NCBI GenBank assembly: GCA_026125285.1
Contig: JAHCLO010000001.1
Span: forward strand, 248,001 to 312,000
Direction of reading: 5' to 3'
Source: Verrucomicrobiia bacterium
GTDB taxonomy: Bacteria; Verrucomicrobiota; Verrucomicrobiia; Limisphaerales; JADLHS01
Length of the DNA: 64,000 bases
The notes under the pieces were generated by a model. That model was not told where the DNA came from and did no database searches. It saw only the letters and a program-made list of their open reading frames with translations. Positions 20,352-51,064 of the stretch are shown here, piece after piece. Both the position numbers and the translations under genes were made by a program. How positions within the stretch are numbered: position 1 is the stretch's first letter; each line of letters begins with the position of its first letter.

Positions 20352-22736
20352 CTATTGGTAAATCAGGAATTTCTCACGTCGCTTCTGAAACTCCGTCACA
20401 TCCGTGCTCCAGGAAGCGCGAATCTCTTCCAGCGGCTTATCGCTCTTTATGGCCTCCAAGGTACGATTGTGCAGCAAGAGATGTTTGATCTTGTCCGGAT
20501 TGAAATCGTTCGGATACCAGCGATAGAGGGTCTTGGCGATCAGCAGACCGATGTCCACCACGTTACAGGCATCGCGGTCGGTGGGGAAAATGTATACGCC
20601 CCGGCAAAGCTGGCCGCGATGTACGCTGTAAGTGGGCGTGAACTGGACGGGGACAAATCGCACGCCCGGCAATCCCGCTGAATTCAATTCCTCCGCCAAC
20701 CGCACGTCTTCGATGTACGGCGCGCCGATGACCTCGAACGGCGTGTCGGTCCCCCGCCCCACCGAGAGCGCGGATTCCAGCAAGCCCACGCCCGGATATA
20801 GTGTGGCCTGCGTGAGATTGCGCATATTTGGCGAAGGATTGCTCCACGGCAGACCCGTTTGATCAAGCCACATATCTCGCGTGTAATTCTCGCAGGCGAT
20901 CACCGTGAGATCGGCCCGGTAGTTTTTCTCCGCGTTGAACATTTGCGCCAGTTCGCCCACGGTCATGCCGTGACGCAGGGGAACGGGATGGAATCCAACA
21001 AAACTGGTCGGCTCGGTCAGCACTGGACCGTCAATTGCCACGCCATTGATCGGGTTCACGCGATCCAGCACGAAGATCGGTTTCTTTGCCTCGCCGGCGG
21101 CTTCGATTGCCAGACCCATCGTCGAAGGATAGGTGTAGAAGCGGCAGCCGATGTCCTGAATGTCGTACACTAGCGCGTCGAGTTCGGCCAAATGCTCGGG
21201 TTTGGGTTTCCTGGTTTCGCCATAGAGACTGTAAATCGGCAGGCCGGTTTGATCGTCCTTACTGTCGCCGATCTTTTCGTCCGCCAGCCCGCGAATTCCG
21301 TGTTCGGGACTGAACAAGGCCACCAGTCGCACCCCGGGCGCTTTGTGGAGCAAGTCTATCGTCGGATTCCGATCGCGATCCTGTCCGGTGTGATTGGTGA
21401 TAAGGCCAATGCGCTTTCCCTTCAGCGGAGCGAACTCATTCTTCACCAAGACATCAATTCCATTTAAGGTGCTGGCTTGCTTGAGTGGCGAAGTCGTTGG
21501 GGGACGTTGCGCGGCTCGGGACGGCGTAGCAGTCTCCCCGGAAAGCGCCCCGGGAACATGGGAAAAGTTGAATCCTGTAACAGCTTGAGCGGCGAGCGTT
21601 CCCAAGGTGGAGCGCAAGGCGATCACGCTTCCCTTTTCGCTCGGATGGTTGCGGTTGGAGAGAAAAATGAGGAACGTCCGTGAGAAAGGATCAATCCACA
21701 GCGAAGTGCCGGTCCAACCCGTATGACCGTAGGACCCGACCGGGAAGAACCTTCCCCGCGGTCCACTGTAACTCGAATCAATGTCCCAGCCCAAACCGCG
21801 ACGCGCCGTCACGTTTGGCGGCGTCTGCACGCTCGTCATGAGTTTTACGGTTTCCGGTTTCAAGACCCGCACGCCGTCCAGTTCACCCAGGTTGAGCAAC
21901 ATCCGCGCATAGCGGGCCAGATCCGCGGCGGTGGTAAACAAACCCGCATGCCCGGCCACACCGCCCATGCGGCGCGCGGTAGGATCATGCACCACGCCGC
22001 GCCAGGGCTTGCCGTCCACGACTTCCGTCGGAGCCACCCGTCCCAACCTGTCCGCCGCCGGCAAATAGGCGGTATCGCGCATGTTCAGCGGAGCATAAAT
22101 CTCCCGTACCACGAAATCCTCCAGCGGTAGTTTGCCGACACGCTGCACGACTTCGCCAAGCACAAAGTAATTGATGTCGCTGTACCGAAAAACCGTGCCC
22201 GGCGCGGTTTGCAGCTTCTCCGCGCACGCCTTGGTGATGGCCGCGGCCTGCCCGCTCCAGTTGTCCGCGGAGCTAATGCCCGGACGCAACCCGGAAGTGT
22301 GCGTCATCAGATGGCGAATTGTAATCGCTTCCTTCCCGTTGTCCTTAAACTCCGGGATGTAGGTCTGAACCGGTTCATCCAACTTCACGGCACCGCGTTC
22401 CACCAGCAACATGATCGCAGGTGTGCAGGCGACCACCTTCGTCAGTGAAGCAGCGTCAAAGATCGTGTCCTCCGTCATGGCCTCGATCGCAGGCACGAGC
22501 GCGCGCCGACCAAACGCCTTGTAATACGTCACCCCTTCCCGCTCCAACCAAAGCACACCGCCGGGCGTGCGGCTTTCCGCAATCGCCTGGGAAATGGCTG
22601 CATCCATCTCCGCCAGTTTCTCCGGGAGAAAGGTGCTCGCGAGATCCCGCGCACTGATCGAAAACGATAGAGAGGCAAGGGTGAGAGCGAGCAGAACCTG
22701 CCTACAACGAATGCTGAAACAACTGGCTTTTTTCAT
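20352..22736 (-). CDS. Exported beta-lactamase-fold serine hydrolase fused to a NamZ-type exo-beta-N-acetylmuramidase (DUF1343)
   Basis: A 794-residue protein with a signal peptide. The first half (about 35-390) is a class C beta-lactamase or penicillin-binding-like esterase: SLTK nucleophile motif (in DAASLTKVV), YSDINYFVLG and the HTG box in YGHTGWTG. The second half (about 430-794) is DUF1343, now known as the GH171 exo-N-acetylmuramidase NamZ, with SPEHGIRG carrying the likely catalytic Glu and DIQDIGCRFYTYPSTMG. NamZ releases MurNAc from the non-reducing end of peptidoglycan. A fused serine hydrolase may trim or edit the same wall fragments. MurQ (2159-3025) could complete MurNAc use in the cytoplasm. 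Domain calls are firm; the joint role is inferred. Confidence 0.92.
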   Translation of the reverse strand: MKKASCFSIRCRQVLLALTLASLSFSISARDLASTFLPEKLAEMDAAISQAIAESRTPGGVLWLEREGVTYYKAFGRRALVPAIEAMTEDTIFDAASLTKVVACTPAIMLLVERGAVKLDEPVQTYIPEFKDNGKEAITIRHLMTHTSGLRPGISSADNWSGQAAAITKACAEKLQTAPGTVFRYSDINYFVLGEVVQRVGKLPLEDFVVREIYAPLNMRDTAYLPAADRLGRVAPTEVVDGKPWRGVVHDPTARRMGGVAGHAGLFTTAADLARYARMLLNLGELDGVRVLKPETVKLMTSVQTPPNVTARRGLGWDIDSSYSGPRGRFFPVGSYGHTGWTGTSLWIDPFSRTFLIFLSNRNHPSEKGSVIALRSTLGTLAAQAVTGFNFSHVPGALSGETATPSRAAQRPPTTSPLKQASTLNGIDVLVKNEFAPLKGKRIGLITNHTGQDRDRNPTIDLLHKAPGVRLVALFSPEHGIRGLADEKIGDSKDDQTGLPIYSLYGETRKPKPEHLAELDALVYDIQDIGCRFYTYPSTMGLAIEAAGEAKKPIFVLDRVNPINGVAIDGPVLTEPTSFVGFHPVPLRHGMTVGELAQMFNAEKNYRADLTVIACENYTRDMWLDQTGLPWSNPSPNMRNLTQATLYPGVGLLESALSVGRGTDTPFEVIGAPYIEDVRLAEELNSAGLPGVRFVPVQFTPTYSVHRGQLCRGVYIFPTDRDACNVVDIGLLIAKTLYRWYPNDFNPDKIKHLLLHNRTLEAIKSDKPLEEIRASWSTDVTEFQKRREKFLIYQ

Positions 22737-42892: not shown

Positions 42893-43267
42893 TCATTGGG
42901 CAATACACACCACCCGCCTGCCGCGCACCACGATTGAACCGCGCGCCAGCGCCGCCACGCAGCGGGGATACAATTCATGTTCCGCCGCGTGAATCCGCGC
43001 GTGCAGCGTTTCCGGGGTATCGTCGTCCAGAACCGGCACAGTTTGCTGGCCGATGATGGGGCCGGAATCCACGCCGGCATCCACGAAATGCACCGTGCAA
43101 CCGGTCACTTTCACGCCGTGATCGAGTGCTTGTTTCGAAGCCTCCAATCCGGGGGAGGACGGCAGCAGCGAGGGATGAACCGTTGAGATGAGATTGCGTG
43201 ATTTGCTGCGGTGCCGGTACAGGGCTGTTCGTCGCGCTCGCTGTCTCGCGATAGTGTCCGGCAGCAA
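42893..43267 (-). pseudogene. Truncated copy of purN (C-terminal part)
   Basis: The open frame contains HPSLLP at its junction and then reads as the C-terminal half of glycinamide ribonucleotide formyltransferase: HGVKVTGCTVHFVDAGVDSG, then PIIGQQTVPVLDDDTPETLH and HARIHAAEHELYPRCVAALA. DNA at 42907-43177 is nearly identical to 49959-50229 in intact purN. The N-terminal nucleotide-binding half is missing; the upstream codons (DTIARQRARRTALYRHRSKS) are unrelated to the family. It therefore cannot make a working enzyme. It is separated from the complete gene by the large protease gene and an IS3 relic. Confidence 0.85.
42907..43177. repeat. Direct duplication, copy 1 of the purN 3' segment
   Basis: 271 bp that align without gaps to 49959-50229 (constant offset of 7052). 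I counted 11 mismatches, nine of them in the last 60 bp and only two in the first 207. Homology stops sharply at both edges. Confidence 0.9.
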
Positions 43268-43300: not shown

Positions 43301-46300
43301 CTAATGATCCGTGACATCCAAGACACGATAAAACCTATGGATGTCTGCGCCCACGCTATTAGTCGTCACCACACTCGACGCCTCCGCCGTGAAATCCGCG
43401 CCCAACGTCGTCCAGATTGTATCTGTCAAGTTGGTCTTTACCTCGAAGCGATAAGTTCTGCCGGGATGAACTTGCCAGATCAGAGTGAAGAACCCTTCCG
43501 GCGACTCGGCAATGCTCAGGAGACGGGGCTTGGCGGCTGCCGAGACCTCCTCATCATTGTCGGCAATGACGACTATGGCGCTGAAAGGCACTCCAATGGT
43601 GTAACCCGCCCCCGCTGCCAGTGTCACCTCGACCGTTTCGTCCCCCTCCACCTCCGTGTCATCAATGACGCTCACCGTCTTGGTGGCCGTCGCCGAACCA
43701 GCCACAAAATTCACGCTGTTGCCTATCGCGGTGTAGTCAGTCCCACTGGTCGCCGTGCCACCTGCCGTGAAATTCACGGTCAGCGCCGGGATGGTAAACC
43801 CTGTCCGCGTGAATGTGAATGTGCCTGAATCGGAAGGCTCACCCGCCGTTGCGTCGGTGGCCGTCACGGTGACCACCGCGTCATCGTCGGTGATCGTCAC
43901 CGTCGCGCTGGAAGGCGTTCCAACGGTATAACCAGTCCCCGTTGCCAGTGTCACCTCCACTGTCTCCACCGCTTCCAACTCCGAGTCGTCATTCACGCTG
44001 ACCACCTTGGTCGCCGTGGCGGAACCGGCGGCGAAATCCACAGTCGTGCCAATCGCGGTGAAGTCAGTGCCGCTGGTGGCCGTGCCCGCCACGTTGAAGT
44101 TCACCGTCAATGCCGCCGCCGTCGAAGCGGTCCGGCTGAAGGTGAACGTGCCCGTTCCTTCGCCGGTGCCCGGCTCTCCCGCCGTCGAATCGGTCGCCGC
44201 CACAGTGACCGTCGGGAGGGCAGTGGTGACATAAACATACACGCCACCGGGATATGGATTTTTATCGGGATCGTTGGACGCCACCAAAAGCCTGACAGTG
44301 GATTCGCCACTCGGCGCCAACGAAAAGTCTACATTGACCGTCACATCTTGGTAGTCCCCAGGCGACACATTAAATGGTCCTGACGGCATCACGCTGATCC
44401 AAGGAGCCAGAGTCTCCGGCGTGATGGAATTCACAGTCAATGATCCCGTCCCATCATTGTAGATTCGAATGGGTTGCCCGGTGCTGGACAGAGCGGCGAT
44501 GGCACTACCGAGGTTCACGCGCGGTTTGGTAATGGCCACCTTGGTATCCGTGATGAGATCGCCCGTGGACAGAAGCTGGTTCTTGACCTCCGCGGGCGTA
44601 AGGTAACTGCCGGTCGTGGCCATGGCTGCAGCCTGCAGGGCGGCGACGGCACCCGCTGCATAAGGGCAGGCGGCCGAGGTGCCGCCAAAACCCGACGCAT
44701 AATCACCCGTGGAATAACCCGCACTCCCGCTAATATCCAAAGTGTAGCATTGGTTGGCCGGAGCCAGCAGACCCAGGAAGGATGCCATGTTTGAGTACGA
44801 AGTCACTTTGTCCGGAGCCGTGGTGTCATCGGCGTAATACCCGGTACTGCATCCCCCGCTAGGAATCTTCGGAGCGCAAGACGCAGCGTCAATGCAGGGA
44901 TAGTAGTGACCAAAGCCAGCATCATAGACCGCGCCCACAGAGATCACGCTCGAGATGCAGGCCGGCCATCCCATCGAATCGCAGTATCCATTGTTGCCGG
45001 ACGAAACCAGCACGGTAATACCCGCGGCGACGGCATTGTCTGCGGCCGCGGTCATACCCGGAGAAACCGTGTCACAATTGGCAAAATAGCGGCCTCCACC
45101 AAAGCTGGTGCTGATGACCATGATCGGGTTCGCCGGGTCATCGTCTTTGTGGCTTACGCACCAATCCCAAGCGGCAATCATGGCGTCAGAGGTTGCGGAG
45201 CCGGTAGAACCAGAAGATATTTTCAAGGCGTAGATCTTGGCGCCAGGGGCCACCCCGCCGATATAATCCCCCACGGTTTCAAGTTCGCCGGCAGCGATGC
45301 CGGCACAAGCTGTGCCGTGAGCATTGCCGTTTGGAGCCGGGTTGCTGTCCAAATCACCAAAATCATAGCCGCCCAGCACCTTGGTGTTTGGAAACCCGCC
45401 GCCCCCCAACTGAGGATGGGTGTAGTCCACCCCTGTATCGCAAATGGCAATGGCCAATCCCGACCCATTGTAAGTCGGACGACTGGCCAACGCGTTCATG
45501 AGCGGAATTCCTTGGTTCAGGTGCGCTTCGAGGATGTAAACGGGTTCGATGGAACTCACACGAGGATCCACCCGGAGAGCCTCAAGGGCTTCCCACGTAA
45601 CCTCCGCAGAGAAAGCGCTGATATTCTCATAATGGAACCGCACCTGAAGCAGGCCCGGCGGCACGTCAGCAATGACTTCATCCTGATGCGCCTTTAGGGC
45701 CGCCTGCCAAGGTTTGAGAGAAACCGCCGAATTGAAATCAATTGCCGCCTGGGTCTGCGCGGGCTGATTTAGATTTACCACCACGCGGACCGTCTGCCCT
45801 TCCGTAAACCCCTCCATTATTTGAATTGGATTCAGTAACTTATCTACGGGCGCACTCGTTTGCGCCGGTGCAGTTACCGGGAGGTTTTGGCTGGCTGCCG
45901 CAATCGAAGTCTCCGACGGCTCAACGAAATCCAGCGTTAATGGAGTAATGCGAATATCCGGCTCGCCGCCATCCACCGGACCAACATTCAATTGGATATT
46001 TCCTTGGGCGCCAAAATACCCTGCCGCGCGAATCTCATAATACTGGCCTGCGTTTACCGAAAACGTGACCTGACTTTGCAATCCACCTCCCGCATCGTCG
46101 TTGTTGGCCACCGGGATCAGGTTGGCAAACCCGTTCTCAAATCCGGTATAGATGTGGAGCATCGTGTCAAAATCACTGCCAAAAGTGTCAATGGTCATCG
46201 TGCCGCCGGCCGGAGCTTGGATATACCACCAGACCGTAGCCCCGGCGATGGTCAATTCCTGCTCGTTTGGTTCCGTCGTGGCGCCGACATTATTCCCAGT

Positions 46301-48127
46301 CGTGGTAGTTGGCGGCGACGGCAGACCGATTGCATTGACCCAGTTATCATTGGAGGGGCCATCGGAAGTGACAGTAATCTGCCGGGCATCCCAACCTTCC
46401 ATGTTGTCGTTGGAGGCATCGGCATCCGTACCCGGCTCAAGCAATACACCAATCCAATAGGTTCCGGGCGGCGTGCCTGCCGGAATGACCTCATCAAGCA
46501 TATTGACGGTTACGCTGCCCATTGGCGCAAAGTCCCAAGAATAACTGTAGGTTCCCAGAAGGGTATCGGCCGTTGAGATGAAATCGTTGTTGGAGAGGTA
46601 CACCCGGAAAGTGTAGGTCGCGGGACCAGGATCGGCGTCAGTCGCATTAACCTGCAAGTGCGACAGACCAGTCACTGTTCCGCCCGCCGGGATGGAGTTC
46701 ACACCCACTTGCTGGTTGAGTGGCTGCAGATCAAAAGTGGTGCCTCGCGAATAAGTCGGAATGAAGGCGCCCCAGACGTAATCAACCCACCCTTGAAAGA
46801 ACCTTGCGTAATAGCCTCTGGTGGAGCGGTCAGAGAGCGAGCAGATGGCCCCGATGTACCGATTGTTCCCATCAAACCGATACGCGCTGCTGCCGCTCAT
46901 GCCGCCCCACACCGCCGTCAAACAACCGGGACTGGTGTTCACTTGCCACATGGTGCCATTGTTGCCGTTGCAAGCATCCCAATTGCCGCTGCCATAATAC
47001 ATATCGCGACCAGTATGCAATCCGCCGCCGCAACTCTCGGCTGGATAACTGGTGTTGTTGTACACATTGGCCAGACAGTCAAAACCATATTCCCAACCGA
47101 ACCAACCCGTGAGCGCTCCCACTGCGCGATCCAGCCGGATCACGCCAAGATCGAAGTCGAAGTTGCCGCTGTCGGTATATGAAGACCAACTGCCGAATAA
47201 CGTTCCTCGCCCCCAGCCGTAGGGATACATCGTTGAGGAGGCGGGAATGAGCGTGTCACCGCCATCCCACCCCGGATATACATAAACCTCTTGCGCCCAC
47301 GGGTTGGCGCTGAACGCCGCATCCCGGTTATAGACGCAATGTCCGGCGGTTACCGCCGTTTCGGCGTCTATCATTGTGCCCGAGGCCACGTACCACACAC
47401 TGCTGCCACTGTTATTTACCCAGCGCATGGCCAGCTTACAGTTCACTCGCCAGGGAAAAGCGGCCCGGCTGGCGGATGGAATCAAGGACATGGCCCCGAA
47501 GTTTGCCGGCAGCATCTCCGAGCCACGGGCACCATCAACGCCACTGTAACCGCCGCCTTGGGACGGCAGAGTCTGTTGAATCACAGTCGGTGGCACCGGC
47601 ACTTCCGTGGTAGCTTGCGATTCCGCATCGTGCAACCGGATATTCCCCGGACTGACCGGCGAAGTCGCTCCAATGCCAACCACTGACTCCGGCATCGGCA
47701 TCGGAACCGGCGGCAAGCTTTGCAGTGGTGGATGGTTTGGTTTCCAATCGGCCGGCCCATCGTCAACTCCCAGAAACTGGTGACTGGCCGGGCGTGCCAC
47801 AAGAATCGGTCTGACCGATGGTGCCGGGCCTGGTGGAGGCTGGGCGCCTTGGGAATAGGAGGAGACACAGATCGCCATGAACACCGGAATTCCCCTCCAG
47901 ACTCCAAGTGTGGCAGCACGTTGCCTTACGGTTTTCAAGAGGTCTTTCAGACTGCCCTGCCGGGTTATTCGGGTCACGAGCGCGAGTTCAATCGGGTTGT
48001 GGCTGCATATTGGAGTCATTTGGGTCTCCGGCATTGGGGGGTGGGGGCCTGGTTCGCCAGCGACAAAACGGTTCAGTTGCGTTAATTGGTGAGCGCGCCT
48101 TTCTATAAAGGATTTGCGCCGACTCAT
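43301..48127 (-). CDS. Giant exported protein with trypsin-like (S1) and subtilisin-like (S8) protease domains
   Basis: A 1608-residue protein. A hydrophobic segment at about 73-92 is probably the signal, so the true start may lie after 48127. Residues about 220-455 form an S1-type protease: TAGHC (His263), DFDLGVI (Asp324 or Asp326) and GGMSGSS (Ser411). A CARDB-like segment (about 468-590) and a pre-peptidase C-terminal-type domain (about 592-715) follow. A propeptide-like region (about 775-868) leads into an S8 protease with DTGVDYTHP (Asp897), AHGTACAG (His937), SSGNNG and GGTSAACP (Ser1151). Two Calx-beta repeats (about 1306-1417 and 1418-1525) and a short Ig-like tail end it. Both triads look complete. 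Possible role: secreted degradation or zymogen activation. Confidence 0.9.
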   Translation of the reverse strand: MSRRKSFIERRAHQLTQLNRFVAGEPGPHPPMPETQMTPICSHNPIELALVTRITRQGSLKDLLKTVRQRAATLGVWRGIPVFMAICVSSYSQGAQPPPGPAPSVRPILVARPASHQFLGVDDGPADWKPNHPPLQSLPPVPMPMPESVVGIGATSPVSPGNIRLHDAESQATTEVPVPPTVIQQTLPSQGGGYSGVDGARGSEMLPANFGAMSLIPSASRAAFPWRVNCKLAMRWVNNSGSSVWYVASGTMIDAETAVTAGHCVYNRDAAFSANPWAQEVYVYPGWDGGDTLIPASSTMYPYGWGRGTLFGSWSSYTDSGNFDFDLGVIRLDRAVGALTGWFGWEYGFDCLANVYNNTSYPAESCGGGLHTGRDMYYGSGNWDACNGNNGTMWQVNTSPGCLTAVWGGMSGSSAYRFDGNNRYIGAICSLSDRSTRGYYARFFQGWVDYVWGAFIPTYSRGTTFDLQPLNQQVGVNSIPAGGTVTGLSHLQVNATDADPGPATYTFRVYLSNNDFISTADTLLGTYSYSWDFAPMGSVTVNMLDEVIPAGTPPGTYWIGVLLEPGTDADASNDNMEGWDARQITVTSDGPSNDNWVNAIGLPSPPTTTTGNNVGATTEPNEQELTIAGATVWWYIQAPAGGTMTIDTFGSDFDTMLHIYTGFENGFANLIPVANNDDAGGGLQSQVTFSVNAGQYYEIRAAGYFGAQGNIQLNVGPVDGGEPDIRITPLTLDFVEPSETSIAAASQNLPVTAPAQTSAPVDKLLNPIQIMEGFTEGQTVRVVVNLNQPAQTQAAIDFNSAVSLKPWQAALKAHQDEVIADVPPGLLQVRFHYENISAFSAEVTWEALEALRVDPRVSSIEPVYILEAHLNQGIPLMNALASRPTYNGSGLAIAICDTGVDYTHPQLGGGGFPNTKVLGGYDFGDLDSNPAPNGNAHGTACAGIAAGELETVGDYIGGVAPGAKIYALKISSGSTGSATSDAMIAAWDWCVSHKDDDPANPIMVISTSFGGGRYFANCDTVSPGMTAAADNAVAAGITVLVSSGNNGYCDSMGWPACISSVISVGAVYDAGFGHYYPCIDAASCAPKIPSGGCSTGYYADDTTAPDKVTSYSNMASFLGLLAPANQCYTLDISGSAGYSTGDYASGFGGTSAACPYAAGAVAALQAAAMATTGSYLTPAEVKNQLLSTGDLITDTKVAITKPRVNLGSAIAALSSTGQPIRIYNDGTGSLTVNSITPETLAPWISVMPSGPFNVSPGDYQDVTVNVDFSLAPSGESTVRLLVASNDPDKNPYPGGVYVYVTTALPTVTVAATDSTAGEPGTGEGTGTFTFSRTASTAAALTVNFNVAGTATSGTDFTAIGTTVDFAAGSATATKVVSVNDDSELEAVETVEVTLATGTGYTVGTPSSATVTITDDDAVVTVTATDATAGEPSDSGTFTFTRTGFTIPALTVNFTAGGTATSGTDYTAIGNSVNFVAGSATATKTVSVIDDTEVEGDETVEVTLAAGAGYTIGVPFSAIVVIADNDEEVSAAAKPRLLSIAESPEGFFTLIWQVHPGRTYRFEVKTNLTDTIWTTLGADFTAEASSVVTTNSVGADIHRFYRVLDVTDH

Positions 48128-48295: not shown

Positions 48296-49756
48296 TGAAA
48301 TGGACCCCAGTTTTTAGACCACTGGTATGGGTGGATTTTTTGGTGTCTGCTCCTGACCGGCTCGATGAACGAGCCGGTTAAAAAGAAAGGAAAGGACAGA
48401 CAACAAAATGAGAGCGAAACGACGACGGTTGGAAGCGGGCTTCAAGGCCAAGGTGGGGCTGGAAGCGTTGAAGGGGATCAAGACGGTGGCGCAGATTGCC
48501 CGGGAGTATCAGGTGCATCCCAATCAGGTCAGCCAGTGGAAGGGCGGGTGAGTCAGCGGCTGCCCGAGGTGTTCGAGAACAGGGCGACAGTGCAAATCCA
48601 GGAGGTGAGAAGGAGATCGAACAGCTGGAGCACAAGTGAGGCAGTTGACGATGGAGTTGGACTGGCTCAAAAAAAGTCCAGACAACTGGGCTTGTGAAGG
48701 AGCGCGCGGAACGTTGGAGGCCTTCCGGCGGGACTGTCGCTGCAGGCGCAGTGCGCGTTGCTGGGCATCTCGCCAGGGCGTATTACTACGAGCCGCGGCC
48801 CAGCGCGAGAGAACCTGGCCCTCCTGCGCCGGCTGGACGAACTGCACCTGGGCGTCCGGTCTTCGGGAGTTGGCGGCTGGCGGCGCTGTTGCGGCGTGAG
48901 GGCTCAGGCGGTCAATCTGCTTGGGTGCAACGCCTGATGGCGCTGATGGGCATCCGGGCGATCTACCCGCAAAGGAACACCAGCCACGACCGGAGGCGGG
49001 GCACGAGATCTACCCGTATTTACTGCGTGGAAAGGAGATCACGAGGCCCCGGATCAAACGTGGTGCGCCGACATCACCACCACCTCCCGATGCGCCACGG
49101 ATTCATGTCTGGTGGCGGTGATGGTTGGTGGGCCCGGTATGTGCTGGCGTGGCGTTTGAGCAATACCCTTGGAGGCGGCCTTCTGCGTGTGAGTACTGGC
49201 AGGCGGCGCTCAAGAATGGCACACCCGAAGGCGCCGTTACGATCGGCAACACGGATCAAGGATCGCAGTTCACCTCACTGGCGTAAAATGAGGCGGTGGA
49301 GGAAGGGGCACATTGGTCAGCATGGACGGCCGGGGTGGGGCTGGACAACGTGTTCGTGGAACGGCTGTGGCGCAGTCTCAAGTATGAGGACATCTACCTG
49401 CGCGACTACGAGGACGGACTGGAGTTGGAGAACGGAATGTTCCACTGGTTCGCCCATTACAACGACGAACGACCGCACCAGGCGCTGGGCTACGCGACGC
49501 CCCGGGAAGTGTATCGCTTCCCTGAATCGCATGGGGCCAGGCCGGCGAAGTGGGAGTTGAAATCAGACCGCCTGCGGCGGTAAGATGACGGTGCCTAAAG
49601 AAAACGGGAGAGAGGAGGCCGGCGCCTGGCGTCGCCTTCTCTTTTCCAAAAGGGTTCTGTGCGCAGAGCAGACAACAACAAAAAACCAACGATGCAGACC
49701 CAAGGAATCACACCTTATTTTCTGCGGTCAGTGGTTTGAAGATGGGGTCCACCTCA
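48296..49756 (+). mobile_element. Decayed IS3-family insertion sequence
   Basis: Imperfect terminal repeats are TGAAATGGACCCCAGTTTT at 48296 and, inverted, TGAGGTGGACCCCATCTTC ending at 49756. An OrfA relic starts at 48408 ([20 protein letters not shown], then [20 protein letters not shown]) and stops early at 48551. Its sequel appears in other frames (SQRLPEVFENR). OrfB is broken by several frameshifts and stops. The DDE residues can still be traced: CADITT, NTDQGSQFTS and VERLWRSLKYEDIYL. The last part, open from 49296 to 49583, ends with NDERPHQALGYATPREVYRF. The 1461 bp length fits the family. No clear target duplication was seen. Confidence 0.85.
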
Positions 49757-49929: not shown

Positions 49930-50574
49930 TTATCCAACCACAAGATCACCCCTCTTCCACACCACCCGCCTGCCTCGCACCACGATTGAACCGTGCGCCA
50001 GCGCCGCCACGCAGCGGGGATACAATTCATGTTCCGCCGCGTGAATCCGCGCGTGCAGCGTTTCCGGGGTATCGTCGTCCAGAACCGGCACAGTTTGCTG
50101 GCCGATGATGGGGCCGGAATCCACGCCGGCATCCACGAAATGCACCGTGCAACCGGTCACTTTCACGCCGTGATCGAAAGCCTGTTTCCAGGCTTCCAAT
50201 CCGGGGAAACACGGCAGCAGCGAGGGATGGATGTTCACGATGCGTCCCTCGAACGCGCGGAGGAAGTCGCCCTTCAAAACCCGCATGAACCCCGCGAGAA
50301 CGATCAGGTCAACCCTGGCTTCCTGCAATGCGCTCACGTAAGCGCGCTCCGCCTCCTCGTCCAGTTTGGTGCGAAATTTACCGGGGGCAATGTACCGCGC
50401 CATAAGCTGCCGTGCGCGGGCTTGCGCCAGAATTCCCGAGTCTTCCACATCGCTCAACACGATGGCGACTTCGGCCGGGACCACGCCCTGCGCGATCGCC
50501 TCCGCGAGGGCAACAAAGTTCGAGCCTTTGCCCGAGCCCAGCACGCCCAGGCGGAATGGTCTATCGCTATTCAT
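49930..50574 (-). CDS. purN: Phosphoribosylglycinamide formyltransferase PurN
   Basis: PurN transfers a formyl group from 10-formyltetrahydrofolate to glycinamide ribonucleotide, the third step of purine synthesis. The 214-residue protein has the N-terminal GVLGSGKGSNF phosphate-binding motif and VDLIVLAGFMRVLKGDFL. The catalytic Asn/His/Asp set appears in NIHPSLLPCFPG and HFVDAGVDSGPIIGQ. The formyltransferase signature region HFVDAGVDSGPI is intact. It is the complete copy; a nearly identical 3' segment lies at 42907-43177. An IS3 relic lies just downstream and a minisatellite upstream, so the gene sits in a rearranged area. Stand-alone, not in a purine operon. Confidence 0.96.
   Translation of the reverse strand: MNSDRPFRLGVLGSGKGSNFVALAEAIAQGVVPAEVAIVLSDVEDSGILAQARARQLMARYIAPGKFRTKLDEEAERAYVSALQEARVDLIVLAGFMRVLKGDFLRAFEGRIVNIHPSLLPCFPGLEAWKQAFDHGVKVTGCTVHFVDAGVDSGPIIGQQTVPVLDDDTPETLHARIHAAEHELYPRCVAALAHGSIVVRGRRVVWKRGDLVVG
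49959..50229. repeat. Direct duplication, copy 2 of the purN 3' segment (within intact purN)
   Basis: Partner of 42907-43177 in the same orientation. It covers the codons from HPSLLP to near the end of purN. The repeat pair brackets the giant protease gene and the IS3 relic. Confidence 0.9.
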
Positions 50575-50713
50575 GGGGTCTTCTTACAGGCTGCCCCGCC
50601 ATCGCCGCAAGCTTTCCATATTGAGCCCCTTCAAGCCAGCACGATGCTCGGCGCGTTGAATGGCCAGGTGGCGGGTGGAAGAATTACTTTTCCGCCGGCG
50701 CAGGAGCGAAAAC

Positions 50714-50951
50714 AAACACCAAACACCAAACACCAAACACCAAACACCAAACACCAAACACCAAACACCAAACACCAAACACCAAACACCAAAGGCCAAA
50801 GGCCGAACACCAAAGGCCGAACACCAAAGGCCGAACACCAAAGGCCGAACACCAAAGGCCGAACACCAAAGGCCGAACACCAAAGGCCGAACACCAAAGG
50901 CCGAGCACCAAAGGCCGAACACCAAAGGCCGAACACCAAAGGCCGAACACC
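50714..50951. repeat. Heptamer-based minisatellite
   Basis: 34 contiguous 7-mers: 11 copies of AAACACC (50714-50790), one AAAGGCC, then 11 copies of the 14-mer AAAGGCCGAACACC (50798-50951), one of which has GAGCACC instead of GAACACC. Because 7 is not a multiple of 3, each strand reads as a 7- or 14-residue repeat (TPNTKHQ, KAEHQRP) in all frames without stops, which creates several long false open frames. It lies about 115 bp before the next gene. Confidence 0.97.
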
Positions 50952-51064
50952 AACGCTCTGCATCCGGCCGCAGGGTGACGAATCTCAATCGGGCTGGCAG
51001 ATTTCCATTGCCAGCCGAAAAGCTCCCTTGTTAGCGTCGGGCCGATTTTCGTGAGGACACATAT

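Follow-up and report, generated by a model that had tools for sequence, protein, structure and literature searches.

A predicted secreted two-protease protein of a Verrucomicrobiia bacterium, with an S8 zymogen placed within a putative split Ig-like domain

The window analysed here is a stretch of 64,000 bp from a Verrucomicrobiia bacterium (contig JAHCLO010000001.1, positions 248,001 to 312,000). It contains a reverse-strand gene for a protein of 1608 aa, the parts of which are listed in Table 1. From the N-terminus, these are a signal-like stretch, a prosegment, an S1 domain, a CARDB-like domain, a PPC domain, strand A of an Ig-like domain, an I9-type propeptide, an S8 domain, the remaining strands of that Ig-like domain, a pair of Calx-beta repeats and a C-terminal module. 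The candidate in-frame starts are ATG at aa 1, ATG at aa 32/37 and TTG at aa 64. An earlier note on this DNA had described two complete serine protease domains in one chain with a PPC domain, an internal propeptide and Calx-beta repeats, and all of these were found. When the translation of the 1608-aa ORF was checked, the residues it had named were at the positions given. The domain order it proposed holds for the parts it named, but it overlooked the CARDB-like domain between S1 and PPC and the Ig-like domain split around S8. Pfam searches with this one sequence place neither the PPC domain (E 0.001) nor the I9 propeptide (E 0.012) above threshold, but relatives support both. The C-terminal module, about 80 aa long, is 36-56% identical to copies in several of the genome's large ORFs and is perhaps a sorting or surface domain.

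Table 1. Features of the two-protease gene in the window. Coordinates are positions in the window; aa, residue numbers in the 1608-aa ORF.
Feature	Coordinates	Strand	Basis
Whole gene, S1 + S8 protease, 1608 aa	43301..48127	-	ORF, Pfam, residue check
N-terminus with signal-like stretch (aa 76-95); start uncertain	47846..48127	-	
Prosegment with HPPLQSLPPVPMP motif, aa 95-195	47543..47845	-	Common to S1-CARDB family sequences
S1 (trypsin-fold) domain, aa 209-461	46745..47503	-	Family alignment, profile, model
His263, S1 catalytic (predicted)	47339..47341	-	Alignment
Asp326, S1 catalytic (predicted)	47150..47152	-	Alignment
Ser411, S1 catalytic (predicted), GGMSGS	46895..46897	-	Alignment
CARDB-like beta domain, aa 470-588	46364..46720	-	Family alignment, model, Pfam CARDB in one family member
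PPC domain, aa 590-720	45968..46360	-	Pfam and relatives
Strand A of putative split Ig-like domain, EPDIRITPLTLDFVE, aa 722-736	45920..45964	-	Sequence comparison
I9-type propeptide, aa 770-868	45524..45820	-	Pfam and relatives
S8 subtilase domain, aa 880-1210	44498..45490	-	Pfam, alignment
Asp897, S8 catalytic (predicted)	45437..45439	-	Alignment
His937, S8 catalytic (predicted)	45317..45319	-	Alignment
Ser1151, S8 catalytic (predicted), GGTSAA	44675..44677	-	Alignment
Putative split Ig-like domain, remaining strands, aa 1216-1303	44219..44482	-	Sequence comparison
Two Calx-beta repeats, aa 1305-1525	43553..44215	-	Pfam
C-terminal module, aa 1527-1608	43304..43549	-	Common to several other proteins of the genome

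Complete purN (49930-50574, -) flanks the protease gene and a degenerate IS3-like element on one side. On the other side, 7 kb away, the 3' end of purN is present a second time, as a 272-bp direct repeat that is 96% identical (42906-43177 and 49958-50229). Third-position GC is 0.58-0.66 over most of the protease gene and 0.75 in the Calx-beta repeats, compared to 0.70-0.77 in the neighbouring genes. Taken together, the purN flanks and the lower third-position GC hint that the gene was acquired by recombination. In the nearest genomes, purN is the only shared gene, and no synteny was seen around it in the two regions read. The IS3-like element (48297-49751) is located just upstream of the protease gene; it has a weak HTH_21 match in 48694-49560 and imperfect inverted ends (TGGACCCCA...ACCACTG). 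Two other features of the window were recorded. Upstream of purN, 50699-50967 consists of tandem units of about 14 bp, with CACCAAACACCAAA grading into GGCCGAACACCAAA, and one ORF (20352-22736) combines a beta-lactamase-like domain with NamZ exo-beta-N-acetylmuramidase domains.

Since the S1 domain falls below the Pfam cut-off when the two-protease chain is searched alone (E 0.003, 17.8-20.0 bits, the cut-off being 20.6), its fold was tested with multiple sequences. Ten of the 14 S1 family members match Trypsin in Pfam at E 0.01 or better. A profile of the family matched 1p3c, the glutamyl endopeptidase of Bacillus intermedius, in the PDB at E 2.5e-42, and the S1 fold earlier placed at residues 220-455 is upheld. 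An AlphaFold (AF2) model of aa 195-590 (mean pLDDT 88.9, pTM 0.90) superposes on 1p3c with a VIA Z of 27.7 and an rmsd of 2.2 Å over 210 residues. This fold rules out a spurious S1 match. His263, Asp326 and Ser411 are invariant in an alignment of 27 sequences. The catalytic Asp had previously been given as Asp324/326. Asp326 is assigned this role because some close relatives have Asn or Glu at position 324, and Asp324 was dropped. Alignment, profile and model confirm a real trypsin-fold domain, a double beta-barrel with a complete triad, for which peptidase activity is predicted. The glutamyl-endopeptidase-type S1 enzymes (1p3c, V8 protease and Esp) have the trypsin fold, the His-Asp-Ser motifs and an N-terminal prosegment in common with the window S1. 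In contrast to them, the window S1 carries an additional CARDB-like domain and a fused S8, and its identity to them is about 19%.

The S8 domain was matched directly by Pfam PF00082 (E 2.9e-36, aa 888-1189). Asp897, His937, Ser1151 and the oxyanion Asn1045 are invariant in an alignment of eight sequences, over which the I9-type propeptide is also conserved. The I9 match in another protein, L123 (E 7.4e-4), is just short of the cut-off, as is that of the window protein. Seven relatives of the S8 domain, at 62-65% identity, were found in the window's order, and none of the seven has an S1 domain. These comparisons confirm a real subtilase with an I9 propeptide and predicted activity. It shares its triad, oxyanion Asn and type of propeptide with the I9-propeptide subtilases and differs from the usual members in that another protease precedes its zymogen, which is apparently set within a split Ig-like domain.

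Two unrelated serine proteases in one chain had been called unusual. This is the case, but precedents exist. A 914-aa protein of Zobellia (L095, 11658-14399, +) contains Trypsin_2 and Peptidase_S8, and a survey of conflict systems describes trypsin and S8 on either side of NucA in one polypeptide (PMC7159879). Both have a trypsin-like and an S8 protease in one chain, as in the window protein. However, the Zobellia protein has no evident signal peptide, the partners in the conflict systems are NucA and EAD1, and neither kind has PPC, CARDB or Calx-beta. The window chain has no match to NucA endonuclease or EAD domains; what it has are a signal-like stretch and domains of extracellular type. Given the Zobellia and NucA-trypsin examples, the fusion by itself is a variant and not a new kind. 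The passages matched by keyword in a catalogue of prokaryotic serine-protease architectures do not describe an S1-S8 fusion (PMC2605481). Near the Zobellia gene lies a separate S1 protease gene (L095, 9818-10573).

To place the S1 part, 84,980 genomes were scanned for the S1-CARDB family. Thirteen relatives of the prosegment-S1-CARDB block were found, 12 at 43-50% identity and one at 33%, in Planctomycetota, Sumerlaeota, Pseudomonadota, Fermentibacterota and one member of the Verrucomicrobiales. Their tails vary, as judged by eye and with Pfam, and include PPC, SLH and Golvesin_C. As far as the contigs reach (L051 ends at a contig end), S8 is not fused to S1-CARDB at any of these 13 loci, which leaves the window protein as the only fusion among 14 family members. 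Within 320 genomes of the window's order, this S1 occurs in only one other, G418, where a gene for S8-Calx-beta-Golvesin_C begins 57 bp downstream of the S1 gene. A tree of the 14 S1 sequences gave no resolution and did not group the window S1 with G418. In viral contigs, neither the S1 part nor the S8-Ig or Ig part had any relative, and plasmids contained ordinary S8 and S1 relatives only. On one Paenibacillus plasmid (L042, 1704-5170, +), S8, S1, hypothetical and S8 genes are consecutive. Since the S1-CARDB family is found without S8 and the S8 relatives without S1, the fusion is, judged from these sequences, an infrequent joining of two known secreted modules by recombination and no new enzyme class.

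Such an event could have been due to chance, joining two secreted degradative enzymes that separate early following export and then act independently, as a multi-purpose degrader. We consider this rather unlikely. The restriction of the fusion to one family member is in line with it, as is the result that the other 11 genomes searched of the window's family have no S1 match at E <= 0.001. The lower third-position GC and the position between purN and its 3' copy, which suggest recent acquisition, also fit. However, S1 and S8 genes adjoin in G418, on the Paenibacillus plasmid and at other loci, and fusions of S1 and S8 are known elsewhere, in Zobellia and the conflict systems. Both triads of the window protein are also intact, so both parts seem to be under selection.

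The S8 zymogen of the window protein, like those of L123 and L124, lies between a short PDIRITPLTLDF-like segment and a later stretch starting IRIYNDG. We read the two as strand A and the remainder of one Ig-like domain, of the same Ig family as the HYDIN/ASH/choice-of-anchor-D domains. These are unsplit, and in unsplit copies strand A immediately precedes strand B, whereas about 480 residues interrupt the first and second strands in the window protein. The insert at this site is S8 in the window protein, L123, L124 and L130 (the S8 of L130 being a different one), M6 in L131, M12B/Mep72-like in L145 and C25 with a propeptide in L157. The block from PPC to strand A in the window protein is 44% identical to that of L130 and 47% to that of L131, and the Ig remainder is 49% and 48% identical, respectively. 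In between, homology breaks off because the inserts are different proteases. L131, L145 and L157 have strand A before the protease and the Ig remainder after it, as in the window protein, but differ in the family of the inserted protease and in their C-terminal parts. The N-terminal part of L131 is also similar to that of the window protein, with an M10 protease followed by CARDB and PPC; the two-protease layout therefore recurs with other enzymes. This verrucomicrobial protein (L131, 1-6963, -) is 2321 aa long; besides the metalloproteases M10 and M6 it has CARDB, PPC and the split form of the Ig-like domain. In L157, Pfam PF22544 is matched after the protease from profile position 21 only (E 1e-10).

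A 15-residue matrix for strand A was built solely from five unsplit Ig domains. With this matrix, the pre-propeptide segment was the best of 322-1272 upstream windows in six of six proteins, and ranked first in a seventh as well. The scores were 12.0-19.2, compared to a mean best score of 8.8 (s.d. 2.9) in a background of 68 other loci, each represented by its longest ORF, so the match is notable mainly by its rank and position and not by score alone. When the joined domain was aligned to unsplit domains with hhalign, strand A was covered, giving 67.0 with strand A and 59.2 without it. Of the 320 genomes of the window's order, 8 contain the Ig remainder, the weakest of them (G516) in its unsplit form; besides the window's own genome, one of 388 genomes sampled across the phylum has it. 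Sequence comparison thus shows one apparently split Ig-like domain reused by unrelated proteases in Verrucomicrobiota. Keyword-based, limited literature searches found no report of proteases of several families in one split Ig-like domain.

Another possible explanation is that strand A is only a linker motif conserved ahead of protease propeptides and lies outside the Ig domain. L132, in which an M6-like domain likewise precedes the Ig remainder, would be consistent with this, with the N-terminus of L132 outside the covered sequence. In addition, the split was recognized from sequence, and the AF2 model of aa 721-1306, comprising the split Ig and S8, has a pLDDT of 35, from an alignment of only four sequences. 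We nevertheless regard a linker as improbable since a matrix of unsplit domains selects strand A in all seven proteins, the Ig remainder lacks exactly that stretch and strand A and Ig remainder are both missing from L125-L129, five close relatives of the S8.

Subtilisins mature themselves by cutting at the propeptide junction. The bacterial relatives of the window S1 are made as zymogens and activated by other proteases. Our preferred reading, which we consider somewhat probable, is a secreted fusion of two proteases in which the I9-S8 zymogen sits inside the split Ig-like domain, strand A retains S1-CARDB-PPC and S8 activates S1. After the presumed export, the I9 propeptide would chaperone the folding of S8, which would then cleave itself at the propeptide/S8 junction, as subtilisins generally do. 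This would leave a break in the chain after strand A and before the Ig remainder. Strand A, as part of the folded Ig domain, would hold S1-CARDB-PPC to the mature S8-Ig-Calx-beta part. A further S8 cut at a putative site N-terminal to S1 would activate S1, because its bacterial relatives are zymogens. A single particle, at the surface or extracellular, would then combine two specificities, with protein as the likely substrate.

By analogy with the known enzymes, S8 most likely matures itself by means of its I9 propeptide, and S1 probably requires removal of its prosegment, for which S8 is the nearest protease. Our literature searches found nothing direct on subtilisin activation of this type of S1. 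An order in which S8 matures itself and then frees or activates S1 appears at least as plausible as one in which S1 acts first. The suggestion in the earlier note that S1 triggers S8 maturation is very improbable: S1 does precede the S8 propeptide within the chain, but S8 keeps its own I9 prosegment, and relatives that are more than 60% identical and have the same propeptide without S1 must mature without it. The mature chain might also simply separate into two enzymes.

With two proteases in one secreted chain, self-processing in cis is directly testable. Should strand A keep its place once the propeptide has been cut, the split Ig-like domain would be a simple means of keeping a nicked zymogen together and of coupling arbitrary modules to self-cleaving proteases of any kind, which would explain the presence of the same domain around four unrelated protease families. 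More tentatively, and as a possibility that we do not yet favour, it could be a general host in Verrucomicrobiota for whole zymogens of unrelated protease families (S8, M6, M12B and C25), with strand A, after propeptide cleavage, binding N-terminal modules (in the window protein also a second protease) non-covalently or releasing and assembling them exchangeably.
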